A DNA stretch of 45,023 nt from Oscillospiraceae bacterium (GTDB taxonomy: Bacteria > Bacillota > Clostridia > Oscillospirales > Acutalibacteraceae). The translations under genes and the position numbers were made by a program. The notes under the pieces were generated by a model that saw only the letters and a program-made list of their open reading frames with translations, was not told the origin of the DNA and did no database searches. Each line of letters starts with the position of its first letter. Position 1 is the stretch's first letter. The DNA lies in assembly GCA_910574935.1 (NCBI GenBank), contig CAJTCU010000022.1, positions 1-45,023 on the forward strand, read 5' to 3'. Shown piece by piece: positions 5,335 to 44,901 of this stretch.

Positions 5335-5694
5335 TCAGTACCGAAACTCCTGGTAGCGATCTTCCGTCATAGTCTTTTGGTCGTGGCATCGCTTGCACAG
5401 CGGCTGCCAGTTGTCAGTGTCCCAGAACAGTTCGGGGTCACCGCGGTGGGGAATGATGTGGTCGACCACAGTGGCCTTGACCAGTTGGCCCTTCGCTTGG
5501 CACCTGGCACACAAGGGGTGCGCATGGAGGAAAGCTGTGCGGGCCTTCTGCCAGCGGCGACCGTATCCCTTCTCGGTGGTGGTCTTGGTGTCGTGCGCGT
5601 GGAGCGGTCGATGCTCCTCGCAGTACGCCTCACCGTAGGGGACCAGCCGACCACAGCCGGGGTGCTTGCATGGGGTGTTGGGTCGGCGCGGCAT
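5335..5694 (-). CDS. phage HNH endonuclease
   Basis: This 119-residue protein starts at ATG 5694. It carries an N-terminal zinc-ribbon-like pair (CKHPGC, YCEEH), then CARCQAKGQ, the HNH core VVDHIIPHRGD, and the closing WQPLCKRCHDQKT. Cysteines in CxxC pairs bind a structural zinc, and the His-Asn-His centre binds the catalytic metal. In HK97-type phages this type of HNH protein assists terminase in packaging and usually lies next to the terminase genes or cos. Here the downstream genes are methyltransferases instead, so terminase presumably lies beyond the left edge. Longer in-frame extensions upstream have no ribosome site and cross a strong terminator hairpin at 5797-5825. Confidence 0.88.
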   Translation of the reverse strand: MPRRPNTPCKHPGCGRLVPYGEAYCEEHRPLHAHDTKTTTEKGYGRRWQKARTAFLHAHPLCARCQAKGQLVKATVVDHIIPHRGDPELFWDTDNWQPLCKRCHDQKTMTEDRYQEFRY

Positions 5695-5729: not shown

Positions 5730-5787
5730 AAACACACGCTCCTTTCCTATGTACGGACACGGGGAAAGGATGTAAGCCGCGTCCGGC

Positions 5788-5825
5788 AAAGGAAAAGGAC
5801 CCAGGAGGCGGTCGCCTCCGGGTCC
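5788..5825 (-). terminator. intrinsic terminator of the NYN accessory unit
   Basis: On the minus strand a near-perfect hairpin (GGACCC + GGAGGCG arms paired with CGCCTCC + GGGTCC, one bulged base) spans 5797-5825. It is followed by TTTTCCTTT. It lies after the stop of the 5893-6528 gene and before the HNH gene, closing the inserted two-gene unit. Confidence 0.8.
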
Positions 5826-5892
5826 CTACAGTCTTTGCGATTTTAATCATAGCACATGGAAAATGAAAAGTCAGTATGCACTTAGTATGCGG

Positions 5893-6528
5893 TCACACCT
5901 CTGGAAGGAAGCGGCGGAGCCAGTTCTCCTCATTGTAGCTATCAATGCTATCGAGCAGTTTGGCCAGATAGGGCTTCGCCTCCTCCTCAACGGGGTACCA
6001 GACCATCGATTGCCCAAAACCATACGCTCGTGTATAACGCGCCGAAGGGATCGACCACTTGGCCCGGTTGCGCTCACCTTCCGGGAGAAGCACGCAGTCC
6101 GAGGCTTTTGCCCGAATATTAAAACACCGCTCCTCTTCCGTACCATCTTCATACTCAACAATAAAGCCTTGCAGGTCACGCCAGACCGTAGCGTGTTTGT
6201 ACCAGCCAACAACGGTGATATCTTTCTGCTGCCGGGTGGCGCACCAGACCACAAGGACATCCTCCACAAAAGGCTCGTCCTTCAAAGCGGCGCAGCCCTC
6301 GATGTTTTCGATATGGAACGTGTTCCTCCGGCCCTTGTTAGATTTCGGCTCCACAAAGCCCAGGCATTCTTCTTCTGACTCACCTTCCATGAGCCAGGGA
6401 AGGAAATTGAACTCTTCGTGCCCATATCCATGCTCTTGGACGTATTTGCCTCCATTCAGAGGCACATCGGCATCGCAGTGGCCCTTGTAATACTTCATGC
6501 AGGAAATTTTACAGAATAGCATCCTCAT
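5893..6528 (-). CDS. uncharacterised partner protein of the NYN nuclease
   Basis: This 211-residue protein starts at ATG 6528 (MRMLFCKISCMKYYKG) behind AGAGAGGG. It follows the NYN gene by about 20 bases in the same unit. The fold looks mostly beta, with conserved-looking stretches VVWCATRQ and VVGWYKHATVWR (residues ~100-125) and FGFGQSMVWY-like aromatic motifs near residue 175. I associate the GWYKxATV pattern with N-terminal modules of some restriction-type HNH or McrB-like proteins, perhaps a PUA/EVE-like nucleic-acid reader; this is recollection and needs a profile search. No nuclease residues are evident, which fits a sensor or partner role beside the NYN protein. It is visibly AT-richer than the surrounding phage genes. 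Confidence 0.7.
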   Translation of the reverse strand: MRMLFCKISCMKYYKGHCDADVPLNGGKYVQEHGYGHEEFNFLPWLMEGESEEECLGFVEPKSNKGRRNTFHIENIEGCAALKDEPFVEDVLVVWCATRQQKDITVVGWYKHATVWRDLQGFIVEYEDGTEEERCFNIRAKASDCVLLPEGERNRAKWSIPSARYTRAYGFGQSMVWYPVEEEAKPYLAKLLDSIDSYNEENWLRRFLPEV

Positions 6529-6549
6529 GTTGCGCACCCTCTCTTTCTG

Positions 6550-7938
6550 TCATTTGACCTTGATTGCCAAGGACACATCCCCGGCTTCATTGATTACAAG
6601 CTGGAGCGTTTTGATGTATTTGTCATAGAATTGCTTTCTTTCCGAGGAGGGCATCGTGATCCGGGTGACCCGGAGCGCATCGTCCAGCATGGCGTTGACA
6701 TTCAACTTCACAGCTTGTTCCATGTAGATGCGCATCTCCCGGAACAGGGCGTTCATCTTCAGTTCTTCCGAATCGCCGGAATAGAAGTCATCCAAGTAGC
6801 AGTAGAAAATCCCGGAATCCGTCAATGCCGCTTTCATGTCGGGACCACACTTTTCCCGTTCGATCATAACCAGGAACCGCGCCCTCGGCAGCGAGGATAT
6901 AAGGCCCCAATAGTCGGAATCGCTGGAAACGATAATGAAGGAGTCGATTTTATTCTCGTAGTGCTCCTGACAGGCCCTCGCCGTCAGCCTGATATCCACC
7001 AGCGACTTATTCTGCTTGATCCGCTCGATAGTGATGTGTTCCACAGGAATACTGGTGAACTTCTCCAGGATGCTCCAAGCTGATGCGGTGTGGACATCAT
7101 CAAAGAGGATTATGGTCTTGATTTTATCCAGATATTCACGGTTCAGCCGCCGAAGGGTGGCACTCAGTTTGTAGGGGTCGGAATTCTCGCAATCGACCAC
7201 TACGACCACCTGTTCGCTATCGGCAATGTAGTCGTAGATGTTTCCCTTGACGTAGCTACCGGCATCGGACACCTTGCTGTACTCGGTAAACTCATCATTA
7301 TGCCACTGATAGAGGAGGGTCACGAACTTTTTGTCATTATACAGAATGTTCCCTTCATCTTGGGGAATCCAGTTTATATACATCTGATATGGGTAAAATG
7401 AGAGGCTCTCATAATACACCACTGCGGCATCCTTGGTATCCTTCTCGCTCAGACCGTTCGGCATGATGAAAAGATCACGCACATACTGCCAATCCAGCCA
7501 AAGCGGGAAAAGATGTTTGCAATTGTTGATGCGGTCTGAAATAATGCGGTTGATCTCCACAATGTGGCCGGAGAGCATCGTGCTTGATTTTTTAATGAAG
7601 TTGATGCCGTCTGCCGTCAATTCGTTTATGGCAGAGGCTGACACATATTCCGGCAGAGAAATGATCGATTTCAAATCCATCCGCATTTTGTCATTTATTT
7701 TTTTAAAGTTTCGCTCGATGTCAGTTCGGACGATACATAAATTTCTGATAATTCTGGCGTTTTTATCCTGCGCCAGCTTTTGATAGACAGCCATTTGCGG
7801 CGACTCGTGTTCATTCTCAAATATCCGAAATGGAACACCTATTAGGTATGCGACTTTTGACACGATCTCATATGTACTGTCTTTGTACTGAATTTTTTCT
7901 GTAGGTGGATGCGTCTGTTCAAATACTGCTGCTTCCAT
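6550..7938 (-). CDS. NYN/PIN-fold RNase-like protein
   Basis: This 462-residue protein has a long N-terminal region (1-~240, helical, no recognised motif) and a C-terminal NYN (LabA/PIN-like) domain. VVDCEN at 247-252 supplies the first catalytic Asp, KSLVDIRL at 311-318 the second, and IIVSSDSDYWGLI at 336-348 the third acidic pair. These residues form the metal site of NYN ribonucleases. A final ~80 residues may mediate oligomerisation. Start 7938 follows AGGAGG. Promoter, leader hairpin and terminator make it and its downstream partner an independent transcription unit inserted within the phage operon. NYN proteins cleave RNA in maturation, silencing and defence settings. A prophage-encoded exclusion or defence role is inferred from position and composition only. 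Confidence 0.88.
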   Translation of the reverse strand: MEAAVFEQTHPPTEKIQYKDSTYEIVSKVAYLIGVPFRIFENEHESPQMAVYQKLAQDKNARIIRNLCIVRTDIERNFKKINDKMRMDLKSIISLPEYVSASAINELTADGINFIKKSSTMLSGHIVEINRIISDRINNCKHLFPLWLDWQYVRDLFIMPNGLSEKDTKDAAVVYYESLSFYPYQMYINWIPQDEGNILYNDKKFVTLLYQWHNDEFTEYSKVSDAGSYVKGNIYDYIADSEQVVVVVDCENSDPYKLSATLRRLNREYLDKIKTIILFDDVHTASAWSILEKFTSIPVEHITIERIKQNKSLVDIRLTARACQEHYENKIDSFIIVSSDSDYWGLISSLPRARFLVMIEREKCGPDMKAALTDSGIFYCYLDDFYSGDSEELKMNALFREMRIYMEQAVKLNVNAMLDDALRVTRITMPSSERKQFYDKYIKTLQLVINEAGDVSLAIKVK

Positions 7939-7960
7939 GATGATACCTCCTGCTTTATTT

Positions 7961-7989
7961 GCAAAAGCCCGTAGCAGCGAGGCTTTTGC
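7961..7989 (-). promoter_or_regulatory. 5'-UTR hairpin ahead of the NYN gene
   Basis: GCAAAAGCC (7961-7969) and GGCTTTTGC (7981-7989) form a perfect 9-bp stem with an 11-base loop. The stem lies between the promoter and the AGGAGG site of the NYN gene. No T-run follows on the transcribed strand, so it is more likely an mRNA control element or processing site than a terminator. Confidence 0.55.
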
Positions 7990-7996
7990 CGGAACC

Positions 7997-8026
7997 AGTA
8001 TACCATAGGCTTGGCCCTGTCAGCAA
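7997..8026 (-). promoter_or_regulatory. promoter of the NYN unit
   Basis: On the minus strand TATACT (complement of 7997-8002), with the extended -10 dinucleotide TG one base upstream, lies 18 bases downstream of TTGCTG (complement of 8021-8026). CTGACA at 15-bp spacing is an alternative -35. The site begins immediately after the MazF stop and drives the unit independently of the phage operon. Confidence 0.6.
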
Positions 8027-8027
8027 G

Positions 8028-8393
8028 TTAATAAACTTTGTCCACAGCCCCGATCTGGATTTGGAGAGCCTTGGTGACCCTCGCCATGATGCCGTGATCC
8101 TTGATGTGGCCCCGGCGCTCCACCAGCTTGCTTTTGTCCATAGAGGTCACCTGCTCCGCCAGGGCCACGCTGGGCTGGGTGAGGCCGTGCCGCTTGGAGC
8201 AGGGGATCAGCACATGGGTCGGCAGCGACCGCTTCTTCCGAAGCTGGCCAGTCAGCGGCACCACAGTCACCACGGGGGAGTGGGCGTTCGCCACATCGTT
8301 GCTCACTACCAAAACCGGGCGCACACCGCACTGCAAGGAGCTGCTGGTGTCGCATCCGCAGTTCACAAAGTAAATGTCCCCTCTTTTACACAT
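8028..8393 (-). CDS. PemK/MazF-family protein without visible antitoxin
   Basis: This 121-residue protein begins MCKRGDIYFVNCG and contains VRPVLVVSNDVAN and HSPVVTVVPLT. These are the hallmarks of the MazF/PemK fold, an SH3-like barrel acting as a sequence-specific mRNA interferase. A second ALAEQVTSMDKSKL block completes the fold. The start follows AGGAGG. The gene is in the phage operon 12 bases after the ArpU-like gene, and no MazE/PemI-like small gene is adjacent. Lone MazF-like genes are frequent at this position in Clostridia prophages, so it may act as a transcript processor rather than part of a toxin-antitoxin pair. Only modestly similar to the second copy at 44521-44901. Confidence 0.9.
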   Translation of the reverse strand: MCKRGDIYFVNCGCDTSSSLQCGVRPVLVVSNDVANAHSPVVTVVPLTGQLRKKRSLPTHVLIPCSKRHGLTQPSVALAEQVTSMDKSKLVERRGHIKDHGIMARVTKALQIQIGAVDKVY

Positions 8394-15603: not shown

Positions 15604-15644
15604 GTCGGGTAAGACCCCGGCATTACTGCCGGAGCCTCCCCTAA

Positions 15645-15678
15645 GAACCGTACATGAGAGTTTCCCCTCATACGGCTC
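15645..15678 (-). ncRNA. group II intron domain V
   Basis: The minus strand reads GAGCCGTATGAGGGG, the GAAA tetraloop, then CTCTCATGTACGGTTC. It is a 34-base hairpin with the two-base bulge and stem sizes of domain V, the catalytic heart that binds the splicing metals. It directly follows the maturase stop and precedes domain VI. Confidence 0.92.
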
Positions 15679-15685
15679 AAGCCTT

Positions 15686-17368
15686 TCAAAGCTCCCCTTC
15701 GGGAACCGGCTCAAAGGAAACATCATTTTTACGGACCTTTCTATAGCATTCCGGATGAAGCATTTGCTTGTGATTCTGGCGATTTCCTTTATCATCATAG
15801 ACCTGGAATCCCGTGTCCACGGTGATTTTCTTTCCGCAAACAGGACACAAACCTTTCTGCTGACGGAAAAGTTTCGCCAATATCTTTCTGCCCTTCAGAC
15901 TATTGCGCATTTTCTCGGTGTTGCGTTTTCCAAAATATTCCCGGTCGTCCGCGTCGAATGGATTGGAACAGTTGCGGATTTTTGTAAAGCGGATAATATC
16001 CGTATCGGCAGCGTAAACCAGCCGTATAAACAGGGTTTCCCCATTGTTCATTTTCAGCTTTGTTGGAACAGAAAACGTCCAGCTTCGGTTGCCAATACGG
16101 TGGAAATATTTTGTGGCTATCCACGTTTTGCTTTTCTTTGGATGCCTGCGCCTGCACCAAGCCCACAGACATTTGAACACTTGATAATCTACATATTCAA
16201 ACGCCACAGCAGACACATTGAACTGCTGGTAATTGACCCAGCCGCGAATCATGGGATTCAGCTTGCGAATCAGCCATTCCTGCTTGATAGTGGGGTTTCC
16301 CTTCACGGTTTTCCGGATTTTATCCAGAATCCCTTTGAGATTTTTCTTGGACGGCTTAATCAGCAGCTTGCCCTTGTATTTGCGGATGTTGCAGCCAAGA
16401 AAATCAAAGCCGTCGTCAATATGGGTAATGACCGTCTTTTCCTCCGAAAGCTGCAAACCTCTTTCCGCCATAAACTCCCGCACCATGGGCAGTACCTGTT
16501 CCTGTAGTAACTGTCGGTTTTCACCGGTGATGATGAAATCATCGGCGAAGCGCACGAAGTTAACCATAGGGGAGTATTGCTTACCCTTACGGGTGGTTTG
16601 ATGGAAATGTTTTTTGAGGAGCGGCTGTAATCCGTCCAGCACCATGTTGCAGATTACCGGCGAGATAGGCGAACCTTGCGGCGCACCCTCATCGGTCGGG
16701 AACAGCTTTTTCGTTTCAATGTACCCGCATTTCAGCCACTTGCGGAGTATCTTCTTGTCTATGGGGATGTGTTCCAATATCCACTGGTGGCTGATGTGGT
16801 CAAAGCACCCCTTTATATCTCCCTCCAGCACCCATTTGGGCGACACCTTTTTCGCCAGGTCATTGAAACATTGTTCAATAGCATCCTGGGGACAACGCTC
16901 TGGGCGGAACCCAAAGGAGCAAGGGTCAGCACTCATTTCTGCCAGCGGTTCCAGTGCAAAACGGTAGAGCGTCTGCATGGCCCTGTCCAGCATGGTGGGA
17001 ATACTGAGTGGACGCATTTTGCCGTTCTTTTTGGGGATATATATCCGCCGGAGCGGCTTGGGATGGTAACCTTTTTGCGTCAGTCTGAAAATTGCTTCAT
17101 ACTTCATTTTGGGTGTAGACCATATTTCACTGTCTACCCCGGCAGTTCGTTTTCCTGTGTTTTCCGTCACCCTTTTCACCGCCAGAGCCTTGGCGAAAAA
17201 GGATGTGGTCAGTAGTCGCTGCAAGGCTTTCACCCTGCCGGTCCTGCCTTCCTTTTGAGCCTTTACAATACGCGCCTGCAGTTTTCTAACGGCGGATTCC
17301 GCATAGTCCCAATCGATTTCAGACCATGCGGTTGTGCCGTCAAGAGATGCACACAGTTCCCTGTCCAT
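15686..17368 (-). CDS. ltrA: group II intron reverse transcriptase/maturase with HNH endonuclease
   Basis: This 560-residue intron-encoded protein starts at ATG 17368 (MDRELCASLDG) behind GAAAGGAG. An in-frame extension to 17476 lacks a ribosome site. Reverse transcriptase blocks are clear: KRTAGVD (RT-0/1), KKNGKMRPLSIPT (RT-2), SFGFRP (RT-2a/3), GDIKGCFDHI (RT-3), APQGSPISP (RT-4), and the catalytic FADDFII (RT-5). The maturase X domain (WLIRKLNPMIRGWVNYQQ) follows. An HNH zinc nuclease (CPVCGKKI ... HPECYRKV) ends the protein. It helps the intron fold and splice, cuts target DNA and primes reverse transcription for retrohoming. All catalytic residues are intact. Confidence 0.96.
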   Translation of the reverse strand: MDRELCASLDGTTAWSEIDWDYAESAVRKLQARIVKAQKEGRTGRVKALQRLLTTSFFAKALAVKRVTENTGKRTAGVDSEIWSTPKMKYEAIFRLTQKGYHPKPLRRIYIPKKNGKMRPLSIPTMLDRAMQTLYRFALEPLAEMSADPCSFGFRPERCPQDAIEQCFNDLAKKVSPKWVLEGDIKGCFDHISHQWILEHIPIDKKILRKWLKCGYIETKKLFPTDEGAPQGSPISPVICNMVLDGLQPLLKKHFHQTTRKGKQYSPMVNFVRFADDFIITGENRQLLQEQVLPMVREFMAERGLQLSEEKTVITHIDDGFDFLGCNIRKYKGKLLIKPSKKNLKGILDKIRKTVKGNPTIKQEWLIRKLNPMIRGWVNYQQFNVSAVAFEYVDYQVFKCLWAWCRRRHPKKSKTWIATKYFHRIGNRSWTFSVPTKLKMNNGETLFIRLVYAADTDIIRFTKIRNCSNPFDADDREYFGKRNTEKMRNSLKGRKILAKLFRQQKGLCPVCGKKITVDTGFQVYDDKGNRQNHKQMLHPECYRKVRKNDVSFEPVPEGEL

Positions 17369-17989
17369 TTGCTTTTCTCCTTTCGAAAATTCTGTAAGTT
17401 CTCTTGTAAAGAAAGACCGCATGGAAGTCTGCCCGCTTTTGCGTGGGATAATGTTATCGAATATTTTACGATTCAATCCCTATCCGCCCCATTACAGAGT
17501 GGCGTTCGCTTTTTCCATGTTCCTTTACCCGCACCCCCAACGGCACACCTTACGGTGGGCTTTCCCGCGTATCGTGGGGAGGATACGGGCTTACCACGTT
17601 CCGCATAATTGATAAAACGGCAACTTAGGCTCCGCCTCTCCGCCGGCAGTCTTGTGTCCGTGTATCCCCATTGGAAAAGAGGATATCCGACTGCGCACCA
17701 TTTTGGTTCAGGCCAGTCAGCAGCTTTGGCCTGTTCAGCGTAACGACGTTTATCAGCGGTTCACATTTGTTAGCCATATTGCCAAGACCAGCTCCCAAAC
17801 CGTATTGTGCTAACAGCTTCGCCGTCCCCTCACGGTTCCAGCTTCTCCCTTTCGGGTGGGCTACCTTGTCCTATCCGCTCCCTCATAGCACTTGCGCGCC
17901 ACTTCGGGGATAGTAGGTCTTGCTAACGGAATAGCAAGTTCAATCACCTTTCGGCGTTGAACAATCAATTATGCGACGACGTGTCGCAC

Positions 17990-26482: not shown

Positions 26483-26674
26483 ATGTCTAATTCACCAAAC
26501 GAAAATTATATTGGCATTGAAGATGCTGCGCTATTCCTTAATATCAAGCCAGTTACTTTGCGAAAGTGGGTAAAGGATAAGAGTGTTCCAGCCCACAAAA
26601 TTGGAAAGCAGTGGAAATTTAAAAGGTCTGAGCTGGAAGAGTGGGTAAAAAGTGGAGAAAGCGCAATCAGTTAG
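26483..26674 (+). CDS. small helix-turn-helix (excisionase/MerR-like) protein of the restriction operon
   Basis: This 63-residue protein (MSNSPNENYIGIEDAALFLN) is a single winged helix-turn-helix of the excisionase/HTH_17 type: IEDAALFLNIKPVTLRKWVKD, then VPAHKIGKQWKFKRSELEEWV. It starts behind GACGAGG and lies 42 bases before the first methyltransferase. In this position it could act as a control protein of the restriction-modification operon, delaying nuclease expression, or contribute to DNA recognition. An excisionase role is less likely because no integrase is adjacent. Confidence 0.85.
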   Translation: MSNSPNENYIGIEDAALFLNIKPVTLRKWVKDKSVPAHKIGKQWKFKRSELEEWVKSGESAIS

Positions 26675-26716
26675 AATAGCCTCCTTGCCCAGCCCCCATG
26701 AAAGGATATATGCTTA

Positions 26717-27634
26717 ATGACAGTTAACATAAGATGTGTTGATTTGTTTTGCGGATGCGGCGGAATGTCACTGGGCTTTGAAAAAGCCGGATTTAATGTC
26801 GTTTCGGGAATTGACAACTGGAAAGCGGCACTTCGTGTATATGAAATGAACTTCGAACATTCTGCTATTGAACAGGACCTATCAGATGTAGATGGAGCCG
26901 TAAAGGTTGTGTCAAAGTTCGTCCCCGATTTAATTATCGGGGGGCCTCCTTGCCAAGACTTTTCAACGGCAGGCTTTCAAGATGAAAGCCGTGGGAGAGC
27001 CATTCTATCGATTTGCTACTCTCAAATTGTAAGTGAAATTAGACCAAAATACTTTGTTATGGAAAATGTTGCGGCAATCCGCAATACGAACTCTTTTAAC
27101 AAGGCCCTTTCGCATTTCCGTAAAGCTGGATATGGGCTGACACAAATGGTTCTGGACGCAGCTTATTGTGGTGTGCCGCAAACCCGTAAAAGAATGTTTG
27201 TGGTAGGTATGCTCGGCGCTGCCGATGGCTTTTTGGACGGAGAGCTTCGCCTTAATCTGGCACAAAAGCCCATGAGTATTCACGATTATCTTGGGGATTC
27301 ACTTGGAATTGATTATTACTTCAGGGTTCCAACGAACTATAACCGTAGAGGCGTTTTTAGCGTTCATGAACCATCTATGACAATACGTGCAGTAGACCGA
27401 CCCATACCAAACGGCTATAAAGGGCATCCGAATGATCCAGTCCCGGTAACACAGGTGCGTTGCCTTACGCCGAAAGAAAGAAGCTACATTCAAACTTTCC
27501 CAGAGAGCTTTCAGTTCATAGGTGGCAAGTCCGACATCAATTCAATGATTGGAAATGCCGTTCCTGTGAATTTGGCTAAATTTGTGGGGGCAGCTTTGAT
27601 GAGATATATTATGGGAATAGAAGGTAGCAAATGA
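26717..27634 (+). CDS. C5-cytosine methyltransferase 1 of LlaJI-like system
   Basis: This 305-residue protein has all core motifs: DLFCGCGGMSLGFE (I), IIGGPPCQDFSTAG (IV, catalytic Cys), MENVAAI (VI), VPQTRKRMF (VIII), LTPKERSYIQTFP (IX) and GNAVPVNLAKF (X). The target-recognition region is short (~residues 180-245). It is followed after one base by a second, clearly related methyltransferase. Two C5 enzymes of this type are needed when the recognition sequence is asymmetric, one for each strand. LlaJI itself recognises GACGC by this logic. Target here is unknown. The start lacks a strong ribosome site, though AAAGGAT lies ten bases upstream. Confidence 0.93.
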   Translation: MTVNIRCVDLFCGCGGMSLGFEKAGFNVVSGIDNWKAALRVYEMNFEHSAIEQDLSDVDGAVKVVSKFVPDLIIGGPPCQDFSTAGFQDESRGRAILSICYSQIVSEIRPKYFVMENVAAIRNTNSFNKALSHFRKAGYGLTQMVLDAAYCGVPQTRKRMFVVGMLGAADGFLDGELRLNLAQKPMSIHDYLGDSLGIDYYFRVPTNYNRRGVFSVHEPSMTIRAVDRPIPNGYKGHPNDPVPVTQVRCLTPKERSYIQTFPESFQFIGGKSDINSMIGNAVPVNLAKFVGAALMRYIMGIEGSK

Positions 27635-27635
27635 T

Positions 27636-28541
27636 ATGAAAGCGATTGACTTGTTTGCTGGCTGCGGTGGTATGTCATTGGGATTTGAACAGGCTGGTTT
27701 TGATGTTATTGCAGCTTATGATAACTGGGATGCTGCGATAAAAATATATGAGAGCAATTTTTCTCATCCCATTTATAAAAGGGATTTGGCGGATGACAGT
27801 GTAGCCCAGCAGATTGTAAAAATGTGTCCAGACCTCATAATGGGAGGCCCCCCATGCCAAGACTACTCTATAGCTGGCAAACGGGAATTAGGAAAGCGAG
27901 CAAATCTTACCATACGATTTGGTGAGATCGTTGCGGAAGCTAAGCCCATGTGGGTAGTGTTCGAAAATGTTTATAATATTGAGCGTTTTTCTACCGTGGC
28001 GCAATTAAAGCACATACTATCAACAGCGGGATATGGATTAACATCACGAGTTTTAGACGCAAGTCGTTGTGGTGTGCCGCAAAAACGACATAGGTTCTTT
28101 TTGATTGGTAAGCTTGGTGAGACAGATGGGTTTCTCGATGATGCGTTAGTTTCTAATTTGTCAACAAGGCAAATGTCTGTGCGGGATTACCTTGGCGATG
28201 CTTTAGATACAGAGTTTTACTATATGCATCCAAGAAGTTATAACAGGCGTGCAGTTTTCTCAGTAGACGAACCAGCGGCAACGATTCGAGGCATTAACAG
28301 GCCGATTCCTGAAAACTACAAGCGACATCATGCGGATAAGGCCGATATACATGAGGGTGTGCGGCCACTGACAACACGAGAACGAGGATATATTCAAACT
28401 TTCCCGGATAGCTTTTCATTGCCTGGCGCAAAAACAGATGTGGAGCTTGCGATAGGAAATGCTGTTCCACCTGCACTTGCAAAATATGTGGCAAAATGCA
28501 TTATCCAGTATTCTTCTAATTTTAATCAAAGTGAGGTGTGA
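27636..28541 (+). CDS. C5-cytosine methyltransferase 2 of LlaJI-like system
   Basis: This 301-residue paralogue of the preceding gene has DLFAGCGGMSLGFE (I), IMGGPPCQDYSIAG (IV), FENVYNI (VI), VPQKRHRFF (VIII), LTTRERGYIQTFP (IX) and GNAVPPALAKYV (X). The paralogues align throughout and differ most in the region before motif IX, where target choice is made. They share RPIPxxYKxH before it, suggesting recognition of related (probably complementary) strands. It follows the first methyltransferase by one base and overlaps the restriction gene region at its 3' end. Confidence 0.93.
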   Translation: MKAIDLFAGCGGMSLGFEQAGFDVIAAYDNWDAAIKIYESNFSHPIYKRDLADDSVAQQIVKMCPDLIMGGPPCQDYSIAGKRELGKRANLTIRFGEIVAEAKPMWVVFENVYNIERFSTVAQLKHILSTAGYGLTSRVLDASRCGVPQKRHRFFLIGKLGETDGFLDDALVSNLSTRQMSVRDYLGDALDTEFYYMHPRSYNRRAVFSVDEPAATIRGINRPIPENYKRHHADKADIHEGVRPLTTRERGYIQTFPDSFSLPGAKTDVELAIGNAVPPALAKYVAKCIIQYSSNFNQSEV

Positions 28542-28543
28542 CT

Positions 28544-30691
28544 ATGCCATATTTTGAGGAAATAGCAGAGTATTCAACATATTCTGGTCACGATGCTGAT
28601 TTTCATTTCATATATAATTCGAACAGTGGTGGTGGGCAGGCCTTTTTAGCAGGCAGGTTTTACGACGAAAGTGGACAACTGGTTTCTCCAGAATCTTTGG
28701 ATGGGAAAACTGCTCTTTTTAGGTATGTTTTTCGCTCCCAATCTGGAGAAGATCTTTGCATCATATTGAACGATGATAAAGCGAAATATGAAGTTAAGCC
28801 GCGCGGGAACGGCTCTACATCGATGAAACTGGGCGTTGGTACAGGCCGTGTATCACCAAGTAAAGTGATGTCCTCGTTTATGATGCTACCACCTACTTGT
28901 GGGGTAAAAATGCCCAATAATTTACAGTGGTCCATTTTGAGCGCAAATAACTTTTGGCTCCAGTCTATGTGGCTTGAATGTTGTCCCAACGCCGACAACC
29001 CAAATGAAGTTTTGTTTACTGTTAAAGACTGCGTGTTTTGTGGTGGTGAAAGCAAAGACTCAACCGATAGAACGGGCCGCTACTTTAAGCTAAATTTTGA
29101 TAAGAGAATAGCTGACATTATTGAGTTATCCAACCATTTAGATGCATTTGATGAGCGGATAGCCGCTATAATCGGACAATTTGCAGATACATATCTCGGT
29201 AGGAGAGCATTCCAATACGAGGAGTGCAGCGAGGCAACCAAATCCCTAATGATGCTATTGCCTCAAGAATACCCAGAAAGCTATTCTGGTATTATGGACC
29301 CACTCCCGATTCTGCAAGAAGTGATGATAATGCATGAGAACAGGATGGCGGATGGAGAAAGAGACCTTGAGAGTGCGTTTAAGGAGTGGCTATCTTGCGT
29401 TACAAAAGCAAACGGCGAGCTATACTCAGAAAACACAAGAAATCAGTATATCAGTGCGCTAAAGGCTGTAGGGGCTTCATTTGCTGGCGCTATTGCACCA
29501 TGCACATCCATATTTGAAATTAGAGATACCGATTCGTTCAGCAGGGTCTATGACAGTATAAAGGCTTCTGAAGGATATGAAGCCTTCAACCAGGCGCGAG
29601 GCAATGGAGCGCTTTCAGCCGGACTCGAGTTATACAATCGTTTTTTACGAGAACATCCTATTACAGTGGAGTCCTGTCCAGTCAATTTTAAGACAGGGCT
29701 TGTTAGTGACCAGCCGCATAACCGCATTCTCTTTGGCGCACCTGGTACTGGTAAGAGCTTTACCCTTAATTGTGATAAAGATGCCCTCCTTGCTGCAGGC
29801 GGCGAATATGAGCGTGTAACCTTCCATCCAGACTATTCGTATGCAAATTTCGTTGGTACATATAAGCCTGTGCCGTGCAAAGACAGCGACGGCAAGGACG
29901 CCATCACTTATGCGTATGTCCCAGGACCGTTCATGCGTACCTATGTGAAAGCGCTTCAGAACAGCAGAACGGCCGAGCCTAAGCCTTTCCTCCTCATCAT
30001 TGAAGAGATTAACCGTGCCAATGTGGCCGCTGTGTTTGGCGATGTGTTCCAGCTTCTTGACCGTGGTGAGGATGAGGTTAGCGAATATCCGATTCAGGCA
30101 TCCGAGGACATCAAAAAGCATTTGGCAGAGAAGCTCGGCGGTGCGCCGGACGATTATTCGGAAATTCGCATCCCGGACAATATGTTTATATGGGCAACGA
30201 TGAACAGCGCAGACCAAGGCGTTTTTCCGATGGACACGGCATTTAAACGCAGATGGGATTTCACCTATTTGGGGATCGATGACAGCGAAGCCGGGATTGC
30301 CGGTAGGAAGGTAATTCTTGGTCAAGGCGAATATCGCCGCATCGTTGAATGGAATGCGCTCCGTAAAGCCATCAACAGTGAGCTTCTGACCTATAAGGTT
30401 AACGAAGATAAACTGATGGGTCCGTATTTCATTTCCAAGAAAAGCCTGCCAGATGGCGATACAATTGACGCCGAAACCTTTGCCCGCATATTTAAAAACA
30501 AGGTCATTATGTACCTGTTTGATGACGCCGCAAAACAGAAGCGTCTCAGTCTATTTGGCGGCTGCGACGAGAAATCGAGAAATCAGTATTCGAAAATCTG
30601 CAGAGAATTTGACACCAAAGGTGTGTACATTTTCTGCGATGGGATCAGTAGCCAGTTTATTGACGGTGTGCCAGAGGATGAAGGGGTATGA
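28544..30691 (+). CDS. McrB-like AAA+ restriction subunit (R1)
   Basis: This 715-residue protein starts at ATG 28544 behind GAGGTG; GTG 28538 is less likely. Residues 1-~380 form a non-AAA N-terminal region that probably reads the target site. The AAA+ motor has Walker A GAPGTGKS (398-405), Walker B LLIIEEINRANV (483-494), and the McrB-type MNSADQGVFPMDTAFKRRW (553-571), where MNTAD is the usual GTPase signature. McrB motors hydrolyse GTP and translocate DNA, delivering it to McrC. The gene is coupled to McrC by ATGA. In LlaJI-type systems the motor recognises unmethylated DNA, unlike classic McrBC, which cuts methylated DNA. Confidence 0.92.
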   Translation: MPYFEEIAEYSTYSGHDADFHFIYNSNSGGGQAFLAGRFYDESGQLVSPESLDGKTALFRYVFRSQSGEDLCIILNDDKAKYEVKPRGNGSTSMKLGVGTGRVSPSKVMSSFMMLPPTCGVKMPNNLQWSILSANNFWLQSMWLECCPNADNPNEVLFTVKDCVFCGGESKDSTDRTGRYFKLNFDKRIADIIELSNHLDAFDERIAAIIGQFADTYLGRRAFQYEECSEATKSLMMLLPQEYPESYSGIMDPLPILQEVMIMHENRMADGERDLESAFKEWLSCVTKANGELYSENTRNQYISALKAVGASFAGAIAPCTSIFEIRDTDSFSRVYDSIKASEGYEAFNQARGNGALSAGLELYNRFLREHPITVESCPVNFKTGLVSDQPHNRILFGAPGTGKSFTLNCDKDALLAAGGEYERVTFHPDYSYANFVGTYKPVPCKDSDGKDAITYAYVPGPFMRTYVKALQNSRTAEPKPFLLIIEEINRANVAAVFGDVFQLLDRGEDEVSEYPIQASEDIKKHLAEKLGGAPDDYSEIRIPDNMFIWATMNSADQGVFPMDTAFKRRWDFTYLGIDDSEAGIAGRKVILGQGEYRRIVEWNALRKAINSELLTYKVNEDKLMGPYFISKKSLPDGDTIDAETFARIFKNKVIMYLFDDAAKQKRLSLFGGCDEKSRNQYSKICREFDTKGVYIFCDGISSQFIDGVPEDEGV

Positions 30692-32160
30692 TTTCAGTTT
30701 TTCTGCGAGAACAAAAGCGATATACGCAAAATGAACTGGTGGATCAGTTCCAATGCTCCGAGGAAAGGACTGTCCATATTCTGAAGCGGCTCAAAGAGTA
30801 TGGCGTTCTCAAGGCTGTAAAAGCAAATGACACACAAAAAGACCTTACCGAGCTGATAGACGAGGACATTGAAATAGCAGATGTTGAGGTTGGCGAAAAC
30901 GAGTACCTGTATGTATTTACCTTCGTAGGGGTTATCACGATAGAGGGCCGGGTACTAAAATGCTTTCCAAAATACCTGCTCGATGCTACTGCGCCCACGC
31001 CAGAGCTAAAACAGGTGCTTAAGGTGCTGGAAAAGTACAATACCAAAGAGCAGATCATTCGGATGTATAATGATACGAGCGACAGCAGCGCGTTTAATAT
31101 GCTTGCGGTCATGCTGTTCCTCCTTCAGGACTATTTCGAATACGGTGCCTATACAAACACACAGGATATCATCGAATCGAATGGTGCTGGGGATATTCTT
31201 TGGGATAAAACCATCAACGAGACATTTACCCTTCTTAGCAATAACCGGCCATATTACCCGGAATTGTTGACGATGAAGCGCGTAAACGATGATTTTGATT
31301 ATTTTAAGCGACTGCATGAGTGTATCCTCACAAAATGCAGTATGGAACTAAGAGACGCCGATCTGTTAGACCTGTTTGACATTATGGGCGTTGATATTTC
31401 CGATGAACAGATTGAGGACTTTGGTGACAAGGAGTACATTCTTGAGCGAATCACCAAGGAACTCAACATCCAGTTTAACACCCGCAAACAGCTTCTGCTA
31501 AAAACCCTGTATGCCTACATAGCCAACAGCAGCGCCTTGGATGATTTGGATTGCTTCAGTATGTTCGGCACGAACAGTTTCAACCTGGTATGGGAAAAAG
31601 CCTGCGCCGAAGTGTTGGACAACCAGTTGCAGAGGCCAATTGGCGGTCTGCGTCTGCCTGTCCAGTTGGCGGGACAATACCGCGAGATGCGGCACAGGAA
31701 ACTCATTGATTTGATTGAAAAACCGGAGTGGTGCGGGTTTGCACCAAGCGGCGAGCCGTTTTCGAAGAGAGCGGAGGATACACTCATTCCTGACCTCATC
31801 TCTATCGTAGATGTCCATGGGGATTACCAGTTTATCATCTTTGACGCAAAGTATTATAACCTCCAGCTTCAATATAATAAAGTGCTTCGAGGTCATCCTG
31901 GGATAGAATCTATCACAAAGCAGTATCTATATCAGCTTGCCTATCAGCCTTTTGTGGATGCCCACCAGATTGGTACAGTGAGAAACTGCTTTTTAATGCC
32001 GACCGCTGCTTCAGCGATTATCAGCAAAGGGTCAGTTTCAATGTCTATGCTGGAAAATCTGGGTTTACAACCCATCCAAGTGCGCCTATTGCCCGCAGAT
32101 TTAATGTACCGACACTATTTAGAAAACACTAAGCTGGACATTCTGAAACTCAATTTATAG
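30688..32160 (+). CDS. McrC/LlaJI-family restriction endonuclease subunit (R2)
   Basis: This 490-residue protein starts at ATG 30688, overlapping the McrB stop. The N-terminal ~100 residues look like a winged-helix and McrB-binding segment (SEERTVHILKRLKEYGVL). The C-terminal nuclease shows IPDLIS (Asp ~369) and IFDAKYY (Asp 386, Lys 388), the PD-(D/E)xK centre. The length and architecture match the LlaJI restriction endonuclease family rather than the shorter E. coli McrC. It should cut DNA only in complex with the McrB-like motor. It ends the operon; the 20-bp-periodic repeats begin 11 bases after its stop. Confidence 0.9.
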   Translation: MISVFLREQKRYTQNELVDQFQCSEERTVHILKRLKEYGVLKAVKANDTQKDLTELIDEDIEIADVEVGENEYLYVFTFVGVITIEGRVLKCFPKYLLDATAPTPELKQVLKVLEKYNTKEQIIRMYNDTSDSSAFNMLAVMLFLLQDYFEYGAYTNTQDIIESNGAGDILWDKTINETFTLLSNNRPYYPELLTMKRVNDDFDYFKRLHECILTKCSMELRDADLLDLFDIMGVDISDEQIEDFGDKEYILERITKELNIQFNTRKQLLLKTLYAYIANSSALDDLDCFSMFGTNSFNLVWEKACAEVLDNQLQRPIGGLRLPVQLAGQYREMRHRKLIDLIEKPEWCGFAPSGEPFSKRAEDTLIPDLISIVDVHGDYQFIIFDAKYYNLQLQYNKVLRGHPGIESITKQYLYQLAYQPFVDAHQIGTVRNCFLMPTAASAIISKGSVSMSMLENLGLQPIQVRLLPADLMYRHYLENTKLDILKLNL

Positions 32161-43994: not shown

Positions 43995-44458
43995 TGGGCT
44001 TCCCGCAGCTCCTTGACAACTGAATACCCATTCACCAAATACATTCTCTTTGTGATTGTGATGAGCAAAAGCGTGTGCAGCGGTACGCCATGACCTGCCG
44101 AAAAGCAGAAGCGATGAAAGGTGGTGAGCGGAAATTACCGACTCAAAATATCGGGCAGCCCCCGATTTCGCCATGACCCACAAAGAGGACAATGATACTC
44201 CCGTCCAGTCACAGTCCGAGCGGTAGCCAATCCGCCGCAGACAATGAGGGCGGCTCTGTCAGACCGACAGTTGGGGTGCGATTCCCGTGGCGTCAGTTCG
44301 CTGCTGACCGTTTGGTGACTTCCCTTACGTTTAACGTATCCGCATTTCGGGGTGTCGAGGACAAATAGAAATGCTCCTATCATATCAAGCCAGATGCAGG
44401 GCGGTCTATGGAAACAGGGCTTTGTTTTTATGCCCCGCTGACCTTAAACACTCCCTTG
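43995..44458. other. non-coding stretch of the ICE right end
   Basis: About 460 bases without a credible gene. Visible structure includes GTCAG-TTCGCTG-CTGAC near 44293-44309. The position between a sigma-like gene and xis matches the control region of Tn916-type elements. No promoter could be assigned confidently. Confidence 0.4.
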
Positions 44459-44504
44459 TATCTGGCTGCTACATAGGCAGGAATCTCCTGCCTAAATCCA
44501 GATA
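44459..44504 (+). promoter_or_regulatory. folded leader of the MazF-like gene
   Basis: TATCTGG (44459-44465) pairs with CCAGATA (44498-44504). Inside, TAGGCAGGA (44474-44482) pairs with TCCTGCCTA (44486-44494) over a 3-base loop. The outer stem ends directly at the GGAGG of the MazF-like gene, and TCTCCTG in the inner arm could alternatively pair with that site. Translational control is plausible. Confidence 0.55.
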
Positions 44505-44520
44505 GGAGGTCAAACACATA

Positions 44521-44901
44521 ATGGAAAGGACTATCAAGCATGGGGACATCTTCTACGCAGACCTAAATCCCATTGTCGGCTCCGAGCAGGGCGGCAGGCG
44601 ACCCGTACTCATCGTTTCTAACGACATAGGGAACACCCACAGCCCCACCGTCATCATTGTGCCAATCACGAGCCGAGTGCATACAAAGGCAAAGCTGCCC
44701 ACACATACCGAGGTAGGCAGCTTCGAGGGGCTTGACAAGAACTCCCTCATCCTTGCAGAGCAAATCCGCACCATAGACAAGCGGAGGTTAGAGAACTACA
44801 TCGGCAGGCTCCCCGAAAGCATCCTGCCAAAGCTCAACCGCTCCCTCGCCGTCAGCATAGACCTGGCGGCAAAGGCGGCGGCAACAGAACAGCAACCCTA
44901 A
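44521..44901 (+). CDS. PemK/MazF-family protein of the conjugative element
   Basis: This 126-residue protein begins MERTIKHGDIFYADLNPIVG and has RRPVLIVSNDIGNTHSPTVI and LILAEQIRTIDKRRL, the MazF fold blocks with the conserved Arg/Ser of the RNase centre. Start follows TAGGAGG. No antitoxin gene is adjacent on either side. It precedes the Tn916-type excisionase by 51 bases, a recurrent arrangement in Tn1549-like elements, where it may process element or host mRNA at excision. Closer in length and motif spelling to chromosomal MazF than is the phage copy at 8028-8393. Confidence 0.92.
   Translation: MERTIKHGDIFYADLNPIVGSEQGGRRPVLIVSNDIGNTHSPTVIIVPITSRVHTKAKLPTHTEVGSFEGLDKNSLILAEQIRTIDKRRLENYIGRLPESILPKLNRSLAVSIDLAAKAAATEQQP

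Follow-up and report, generated by a model that had tools for sequence, protein, structure and literature searches.

The DNA analysed here (the window) is a stretch of 45,023 nucleotides (nt) from contig CAJTCU010000022.1 of an Oscillospiraceae bacterium, and its prophage contains two genes inserted between a MazF-like gene and the HNH/terminase operon, which raises the question of whether they form one self-contained unit or two separate acquisitions, and which purpose they would serve. The first, an NYN-family gene (6550-7938, minus strand), encodes a protein of 462 amino acids (aa) with a helical conserved N-terminal domain (residues ~20-240), an NYN nuclease domain (~241-388) and a C-terminal region. 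The second, gene B (5893-6528, minus strand), encodes 211 aa that make up a stand-alone domain with a GWY motif, likely a PUA-like reader of modified bases. An earlier interpretation drawn from the letters alone, referred to below as the sequence-only reading, had described two genes here, and both open reading frames (ORFs; 6550-7938 and 5893-6537, minus strand) are confirmed. The B ORF opens at GTG 6537, and ATG 6528 corresponds to the start position conserved in the relative L002 (L numbers denote the loci compared); assuming this start, the NYN-B intergenic gap is 21 nt. The insert proper spans approximately 5893-8027. We favour the reading that an accessory slot has taken up NYN and B one behind the other, both of them moron-type genes with a probable anti-phage role. 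We assign a probability of roughly 0.55 to a slot with two independently gained and lost defence-type genes, and this value includes the antiviral purpose, which is the weakest step.

NYN and B are separable genes, each with its own history, and they do not form a conserved unit. Of the 40 NYN contigs examined, 6 have B next to NYN, and 6 of the 25 distinct B contigs have NYN as the neighbour of B. These are the same six contigs, all from one phage lineage (window/L059, L001, L004 and L002/L005), and NYN stands without B in the other 34. Outside this lineage, no NYN contig examined had B and no B contig had NYN within the flanking DNA examined; some flanks are short, such as the 225 bases after NYN in L043, and the absence of B there means its absence from the sequence examined. 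For these counts, rows repeating the window (L006, L036, L093 and L097) and other repeats (L122 = L001; L087 = L005; L009-L020 = L042-L053; L037-L041 = L054-L058) were dropped, as were L058 and L096, whose match to B is weak, and the hits confined to the NYN domain (15 of the 28 genomes in the family search). Near-duplicates were counted, namely L059/window, L002/L003/L005, L064/L065, L072/L077, L079/L086/L007, L083/L084, L089/L090 and L091/L092. Among the 300 genomes searched from the same GTDB family, only 2 hold both genes, the window's own and G196, and in G196 they are on different contigs.

Moreover, NYN occurs without B at the same phage locus. L002 and L003 share 99.75% identity over 2032 bp through the NYN stop codon and 87% beyond it, and B, which is present in L002 and missing from L003, sits exactly at this identity break. 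The separate contig L078 likewise has NYN at the phage locus and no B. The five phage-locus NYNs form one group in the tree (support 100/100) with the B-less L078 outermost, and the clade of type I restriction-modification (R-M) and plasmid cassettes is their sister with weaker support (85/77). Co-occurrence elsewhere, on which the pairing in the sequence-only reading depended, was thus seen in no contig examined outside the phage lineage, and even the home locus can do without B, so that the idea of a conserved pair had to be given up.

These results bear directly on two explanations that treat the genes as one system. A true two-gene system limited to this phage lineage, in which B would sense modified invading DNA and activate NYN for abortive infection, would agree with the shared strand, the short gap and the single promoter. 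The NYN-B order has also been kept in all six contigs of the lineage while B diverged to 72%, and some benefit of a joint operon is therefore possible. In addition, B is joined to nucleases elsewhere, so nuclease pairing can be called its habit. Nevertheless, NYN persists without B in L003, L078 and the other contigs examined, B is never found with NYN elsewhere, and the other partners of B are DNases or helicases. Given the two B-less loci and the co-occurrence in only 6 of 40 contigs, the fixed two-gene system was rejected as the main reading, and we consider it unlikely. A toxin-antitoxin module with NYN as the toxin and B as the antitoxin is highly improbable: the genes are adjacent and co-directional and the toxin would be of the RNase type, yet NYN lacks B in most contigs, the numbers given above (6/40 and 6/25) do not describe an obligate pairing, and B is the distal gene with relatives of the DNA-reader type.

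Returning to two independently gained genes, the site that houses them varies among related phages. It is bordered upstream of NYN by the MazF/PemK-like gene (8028-8393, minus strand; PF02452, E 1.2e-26) and downstream by the backbone HNH endonuclease gene of the packaging operon (5335-5694, minus strand; PF01844, E 7.1e-11; phrog_144, E 2.2e-40). Among relatives of the neighbouring helicase, of which 80 of 101 were kept, NYN and B are both absent from 79 phage loci; L002, L003 and L078 were not returned by this search, so these counts are not frequencies. L123 represents the empty site: the backbone leader and HNH come immediately after the MazF homologue there, and NYN and B are both missing. 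Its identity to the window is 70% for the helicase, 54% for the sigma-like protein, 61% for MazF and 67% for HNH. Other relatives hold different genes in this stretch, either nuclease-like ones of the DUF559 type (L138 8067-8735, scanned, E 8.7e-8; L131, L137, L140, L141 and L186 alike by eye) or RelB-like (L145 2081-2674, below the cut-off; L187 alike), which indicates that the slot between MazF and HNH is variable.

The base composition of the two genes also sets them apart. The guanine-cytosine (GC) content is 46.7% for NYN and 52.9% for B. Of the 14 other genes measured in the phage region, 13 have values of 56.5-62.9%, the outlier being the group II intron reverse transcriptase (RT) with 48.1%. 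At third codon positions, the GC fraction is 0.62 and 0.63, respectively, versus 0.70-0.86 in 12 of the 14, with the intron RT (0.57) and a VRR-nuc ORF (0.65) as outliers. The genes are thus AT-richer than their surroundings, as had been claimed. The proposal of a moron-type insert stood in part: presence or absence at a fixed backbone site, seen in L123 and the helicase-sharing loci, and the promoter of NYN both agree with a late-arriving accessory insert, as does the occurrence of NYN relatives in a second phage slot and in type I R-M and McrBC islands, whereas the description as a self-contained pair was not upheld. The same data make it very unlikely that the genes serve the phage itself, with NYN trimming phage transcripts and B reading methylation by the phage's own methyltransferases. 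Although both genes adjoin replication genes, and a putative Dcm-type methyltransferase and a ParB-methyltransferase fusion were recognized in the phage region by reading, the pair is dispensable in 79 of the 80 helicase-sharing loci, and an own promoter combined with low GC content is a mark of accessory genes.

The NYN promoter and leader occupy 7939-8027 (minus strand). The predicted extended -10 element TGGTATACT (7997-8005) begins 67 nt 5' of the NYN ATG and is followed by a 9-bp hairpin (~7961-7989) and an AGGAGG ribosome-binding site. Upstream of NYN, TATGGTATACT occurs in one copy each in the window, L001, L002, L003 and L078, and it is absent from all of the empty-site contig L123, which shows that the promoter travels with the NYN gene. 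The claimed own extended -10 promoter is confirmed, and it is retained in five contigs of the phage lineage. A generic consensus scan, which found 8 promoter-like sites versus 2.7 expected and 1 terminator-like site versus 2.9 expected, listed neither the NYN promoter nor the claimed terminator. The leader hairpin described in the sequence-only reading is present in the window but not conserved, since L001 has an altered version, L002 a weak hairpin of another kind and L078 a strong one that again differs. Its role as a conserved regulatory element was rejected after a descriptive comparison of the regions upstream of 34 NYN genes: many of these regions contain hairpins, which share no sequence.

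The terminator assigned to the insert turned out to belong to the phage backbone. The leader of the HNH/terminase operon (5786-5892, minus strand) lies outside the insert, and its promoter-like site (5874-5846) stands between B and the terminator-like hairpin at ~5798-5825. The corresponding position in the insert-free L123 and in L002, L003 and L078 is likewise taken by a hairpin with a T-run, of different sequence. Because the hairpin lies downstream of the backbone promoter-like site and has counterparts in L123, L003 and L078, it is part of the operon leader; its presence without the insert (L123) and without B (L003 and L078) rules it out as an own terminator of the insert. It may also stop transcripts arriving from B. 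Across the window (5786-5835), L123, L002, L003 and L078, the place of this hairpin is kept despite different stem sequences, which suggests a conserved attenuator or terminator in the HNH/terminase leader of these phages. In the tail-gene slot of L089 and L090, a terminator-like hairpin follows NYN. Regarding the promoter and terminator of its own that are expected of a moron, the promoter travels with NYN, the terminator in the window is backbone, and the L089/L090 hairpin follows NYN.

The NYN protein matches PF01936 over residues 244-355 (E 1.8e-7; 32.2 bits versus a curated cut-off of 24.2), and all 19 family members match this entry at E ≤ 0.05. The residues D249, D315, D340 and D342, reported as intact in the sequence-only reading, are identical in all 19 rows of alignment A2 and all 16 rows of alignment A4. 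Judged by its fold and these residues, NYN is a predicted metal-dependent RNase of the NYN/PIN type. The closest known proteins are NYN-domain RNases (the MARF1 NYN domain and the VPA0982 fold), from which it differs by the additional N-terminal domain of ~240 residues; for this domain, also noted earlier, no Pfam entry matches at E ≤ 0.05 in more than 1 of 19 members. Against PDB sequences, the protein gave no match at E ≤ 1 and its profile none at E ≤ 0.01. Foldseek with the NYN model returned nothing at E ≤ 0.001, and its weak list comprised unrelated proteins (potassium channels and LarE).

Relatives of NYN are scattered over chromosomes and mobile elements. Full-length NYN was detected in 13 of the 300 genomes of the GTDB family (own included; nine genera), and 15 further genomes matched in the NYN domain alone. 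In the phylum-wide profile search of 299 genomes, only the own genome has the full-length protein and 23 others match the NYN domain only; relatives are also present in Lachnospiraceae (L060 and L067). NYN sits at the present phage locus in the window, L001, L002, L003, L004, L005, L059 and L078, and between tail genes of another phage in L089 and L090, a second slot, where the scan of L090 showed a 238-aa protein without a Pfam match before NYN and a PF06605 tail protein after it. In L079, L086 and L007, NYN follows a type I restriction subunit (HsdR) and precedes a DEAD_2-type helicase, with an AbiU2-type HEPN gene upstream of this arrangement in L007. L080 shows the order McrBC - NYN - HsdR, and in L066 and L069 NYN comes after mobC and a relaxase, the order in L066 being relaxase - NYN - helicase.

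A host RNA-decay or stress RNase that mobile elements acquired, that serves no antiviral purpose and that has B as a chance neighbour, could also be considered. The 12 other full-length genome copies are solitary chromosomal genes within the fetched flanks, and L048 and L052, from two genomes of one genus, share common surroundings as expected for a vertically kept gene. Nonetheless, the distribution is patchy over genera, the surroundings differ within genus g1, and the gene recurs on phages, on plasmids and inside R-M islands. We regard this explanation as quite unlikely.

Two further observations concern the neighbours of NYN. NYN and a DEAD_2-type helicase are linked in L066 (7959-11428), L079 (5959-9428), L086 (5959-9428) and L007 (4772-7335), with either a relaxase or one of two kinds of HsdR upstream, and a NYN-helicase cassette is possible in these loci. 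In three mobile-element contigs, proteins of 74-89 aa are encoded just before NYN (L008 7147-7416, L069 7728-7982 and L091 5725-5949); they end in a KGIGE-type stretch that appears helix-hairpin-helix-like by eye, and the L069 copy has no Pfam match.

Searches of Pfam, PHROGs, NCBIfam and PADLOC with protein B found nothing at E ≤ 1. The GWYKHATV motif pointed out in the sequence-only reading is a genuine family motif, as G107 and Y109 are identical in 15 of 15 rows of the B family and W108 in 14. The family was gathered from genomes, plasmids, phages and viral contigs. Besides the six contigs of the present phage lineage, the 25 distinct contigs include two other stand-alone copies (L054 and L071). 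Twelve longer proteins were scanned with Pfam, leaving out L065 and L077, which are near-copies of scanned ones, as well as L070, L094 and L095. HNH was found in five of them (L055, L057, L061, L064 and L074) and NOV_C (DUF3883), termed a novel restriction endonuclease domain in PMC3710099, in another five (L063, L072, L073, L075 and L076). The scan showed no domain after B in the remaining two, L056 and L062, and the C-terminal end of L062 resembles a PD-(D/E)XK motif by eye. A ResIII/DEAD-type helicase adjoins B in L054 (scanned) and L056 (by sequence similarity), and PADLOC matches across the family fall in the nuclease parts. Phylum-wide, the B profile was found in 4 of 299 genomes including the own; one of the four matches is a fragment interrupted by many stops.

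The model of B (predicted local distance difference test 79.8; predicted template modelling score 0.84) yielded a VIA list headed by PUA-type readers, namely YTH, McrB-N and VcaM4I, and Foldseek gave no match at E ≤ 0.001. Taken with the nuclease fusions of its relatives, the PUA-like model suggests that B is likely a PUA-like modified-base reader domain. The earlier statement that B has no known function can be improved upon by this assignment. Against PDB sequences, B matched only ribosomal S19 at E 0.8-0.9, and its profile gave one weak row. An assignment to the EVE domain (PF01878) by sequence was rejected, as hhalign gave 0.2% probability for B versus EVE, with no Pfam match; the EVE profile was found in none of 60 relatives. 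An additional N-terminal domain in L055 and in L075 aligned to EVE with 85% probability (hhalign, E 6e-6), where Pfam reported no EVE.

Several known systems resemble B in part. In type IV restriction, reader and nuclease are joined in one protein or complex, whereas B in the window is a reader-like domain alone, with nuclease fusions only in relatives. Unlike the EVE-HNH modification-dependent endonucleases (VcaM4I, PMC7897488), it has no nuclease domain and no EVE profile match. It shares 9% identity with the YTH-type N-terminal reader of Thermococcus McrB and is not a McrB. Like the stand-alone EVE proteins beside type I R-M systems (PMC7641849), B can occur as a lone reader-like domain near restriction genes or helicases (L054 and L056), but it belongs to a different domain family and lies in a prophage next to NYN. 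A functional link of B with the neighbouring HNH gene was not favoured, because an HNH homologue is present in all 80 helicase-sharing loci, with or without B. In two Ruminococcus phages, the position of a B-HNH gene (L064 7965-8942 and L065 7962-8939) is moron-like: the genes for the tape measure and the major tail protein flank it, and it is encoded on the other strand.

Combining these observations, we propose that this Clostridial prophage has two defence-type genes in the slot that separates its MazF-like gene from the HNH/terminase operon. NYN arrived with its own promoter, which is seen only where NYN is. Its N-terminal domain would restrain the RNase and sense infection, and the freed enzyme would cleave phage or host RNA, blocking rival phages in the lysogen. 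B would have been gained later, behind NYN, and would be transcribed from the NYN promoter, as the 21-nt gap without a terminator suggests. Its target would be the modified DNA of phages entering the cell, and on binding it would recruit or block a nuclease. An anti-phage or exclusion role of both genes is suggested by gene context, that is, by neighbourhoods with R-M, McrBC, AbiU2 and phage slots. According to a proposal in PMC3710099, R-M systems have associated RNases that are restrained until the system is overcome and are then released. NYN beside HsdR would fit this idea by analogy, with the difference that the RNases described there as backing up R-M are of the HEPN type and the window has NYN. 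Similarly, HHPV4I (PMC10101028) is a virus-encoded modification-dependent endonuclease and offers a precedent for a virus excluding rivals, whereas B has no nuclease domain.

Elsewhere in the window, a group II intron occupies 15604-17986 (RF02012 17792-17938; RF00029 15604-15680; RT/maturase ORF 15686-17476). It is absent from the near-identical phage L059, in which the sequence is continuous, and represents a presence/absence polymorphism, apparently inside the DNA polymerase gene. An LlaJI-type restriction system (26483-32160) comprises an HTH_17 gene, two C5-cytosine methyltransferases, an AAA_5 (McrB-like) protein and an RE_LlaJI protein. At 44189-44901, a pemK cis-regulatory RNA (RF02913, E 3.3e-5) precedes a MazF/PemK-like ORF (44521-44901).

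The analysis names two uncatalogued candidate defence genes. In the literature searched on NYN defence, prophages and toxins and on DUF3883-HNH restriction, as far as its text was available, we met no description of the NYN-B pair or the B domain. The NYN proteins of gut Clostridia form an RNase-type family that shares a conserved N-terminal domain and is mobile, moving between phages, plasmids and restriction islands. The B family is widespread, has no Pfam entry in the copy searched, is fused to several nuclease types and may be a new modified-base reader. As such it would be a starting point for finding new modification-dependent enzymes, and it would offer a testable explanation of how prophages keep out modified rival phages. 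A more far-reaching and rather doubtful proposal is that B founds a new family of PUA-like modified-base readers (the GWY domain), with which bacteria and phages equip HNH, DUF3883 and other nucleases as an exchangeable sensor; in this prophage, re-wired to stand alone behind the RNase, it would trigger RNA cleavage by NYN upon recognizing the modified DNA of a rival. If true, this would constitute an RNA-targeting counterpart of type IV restriction.
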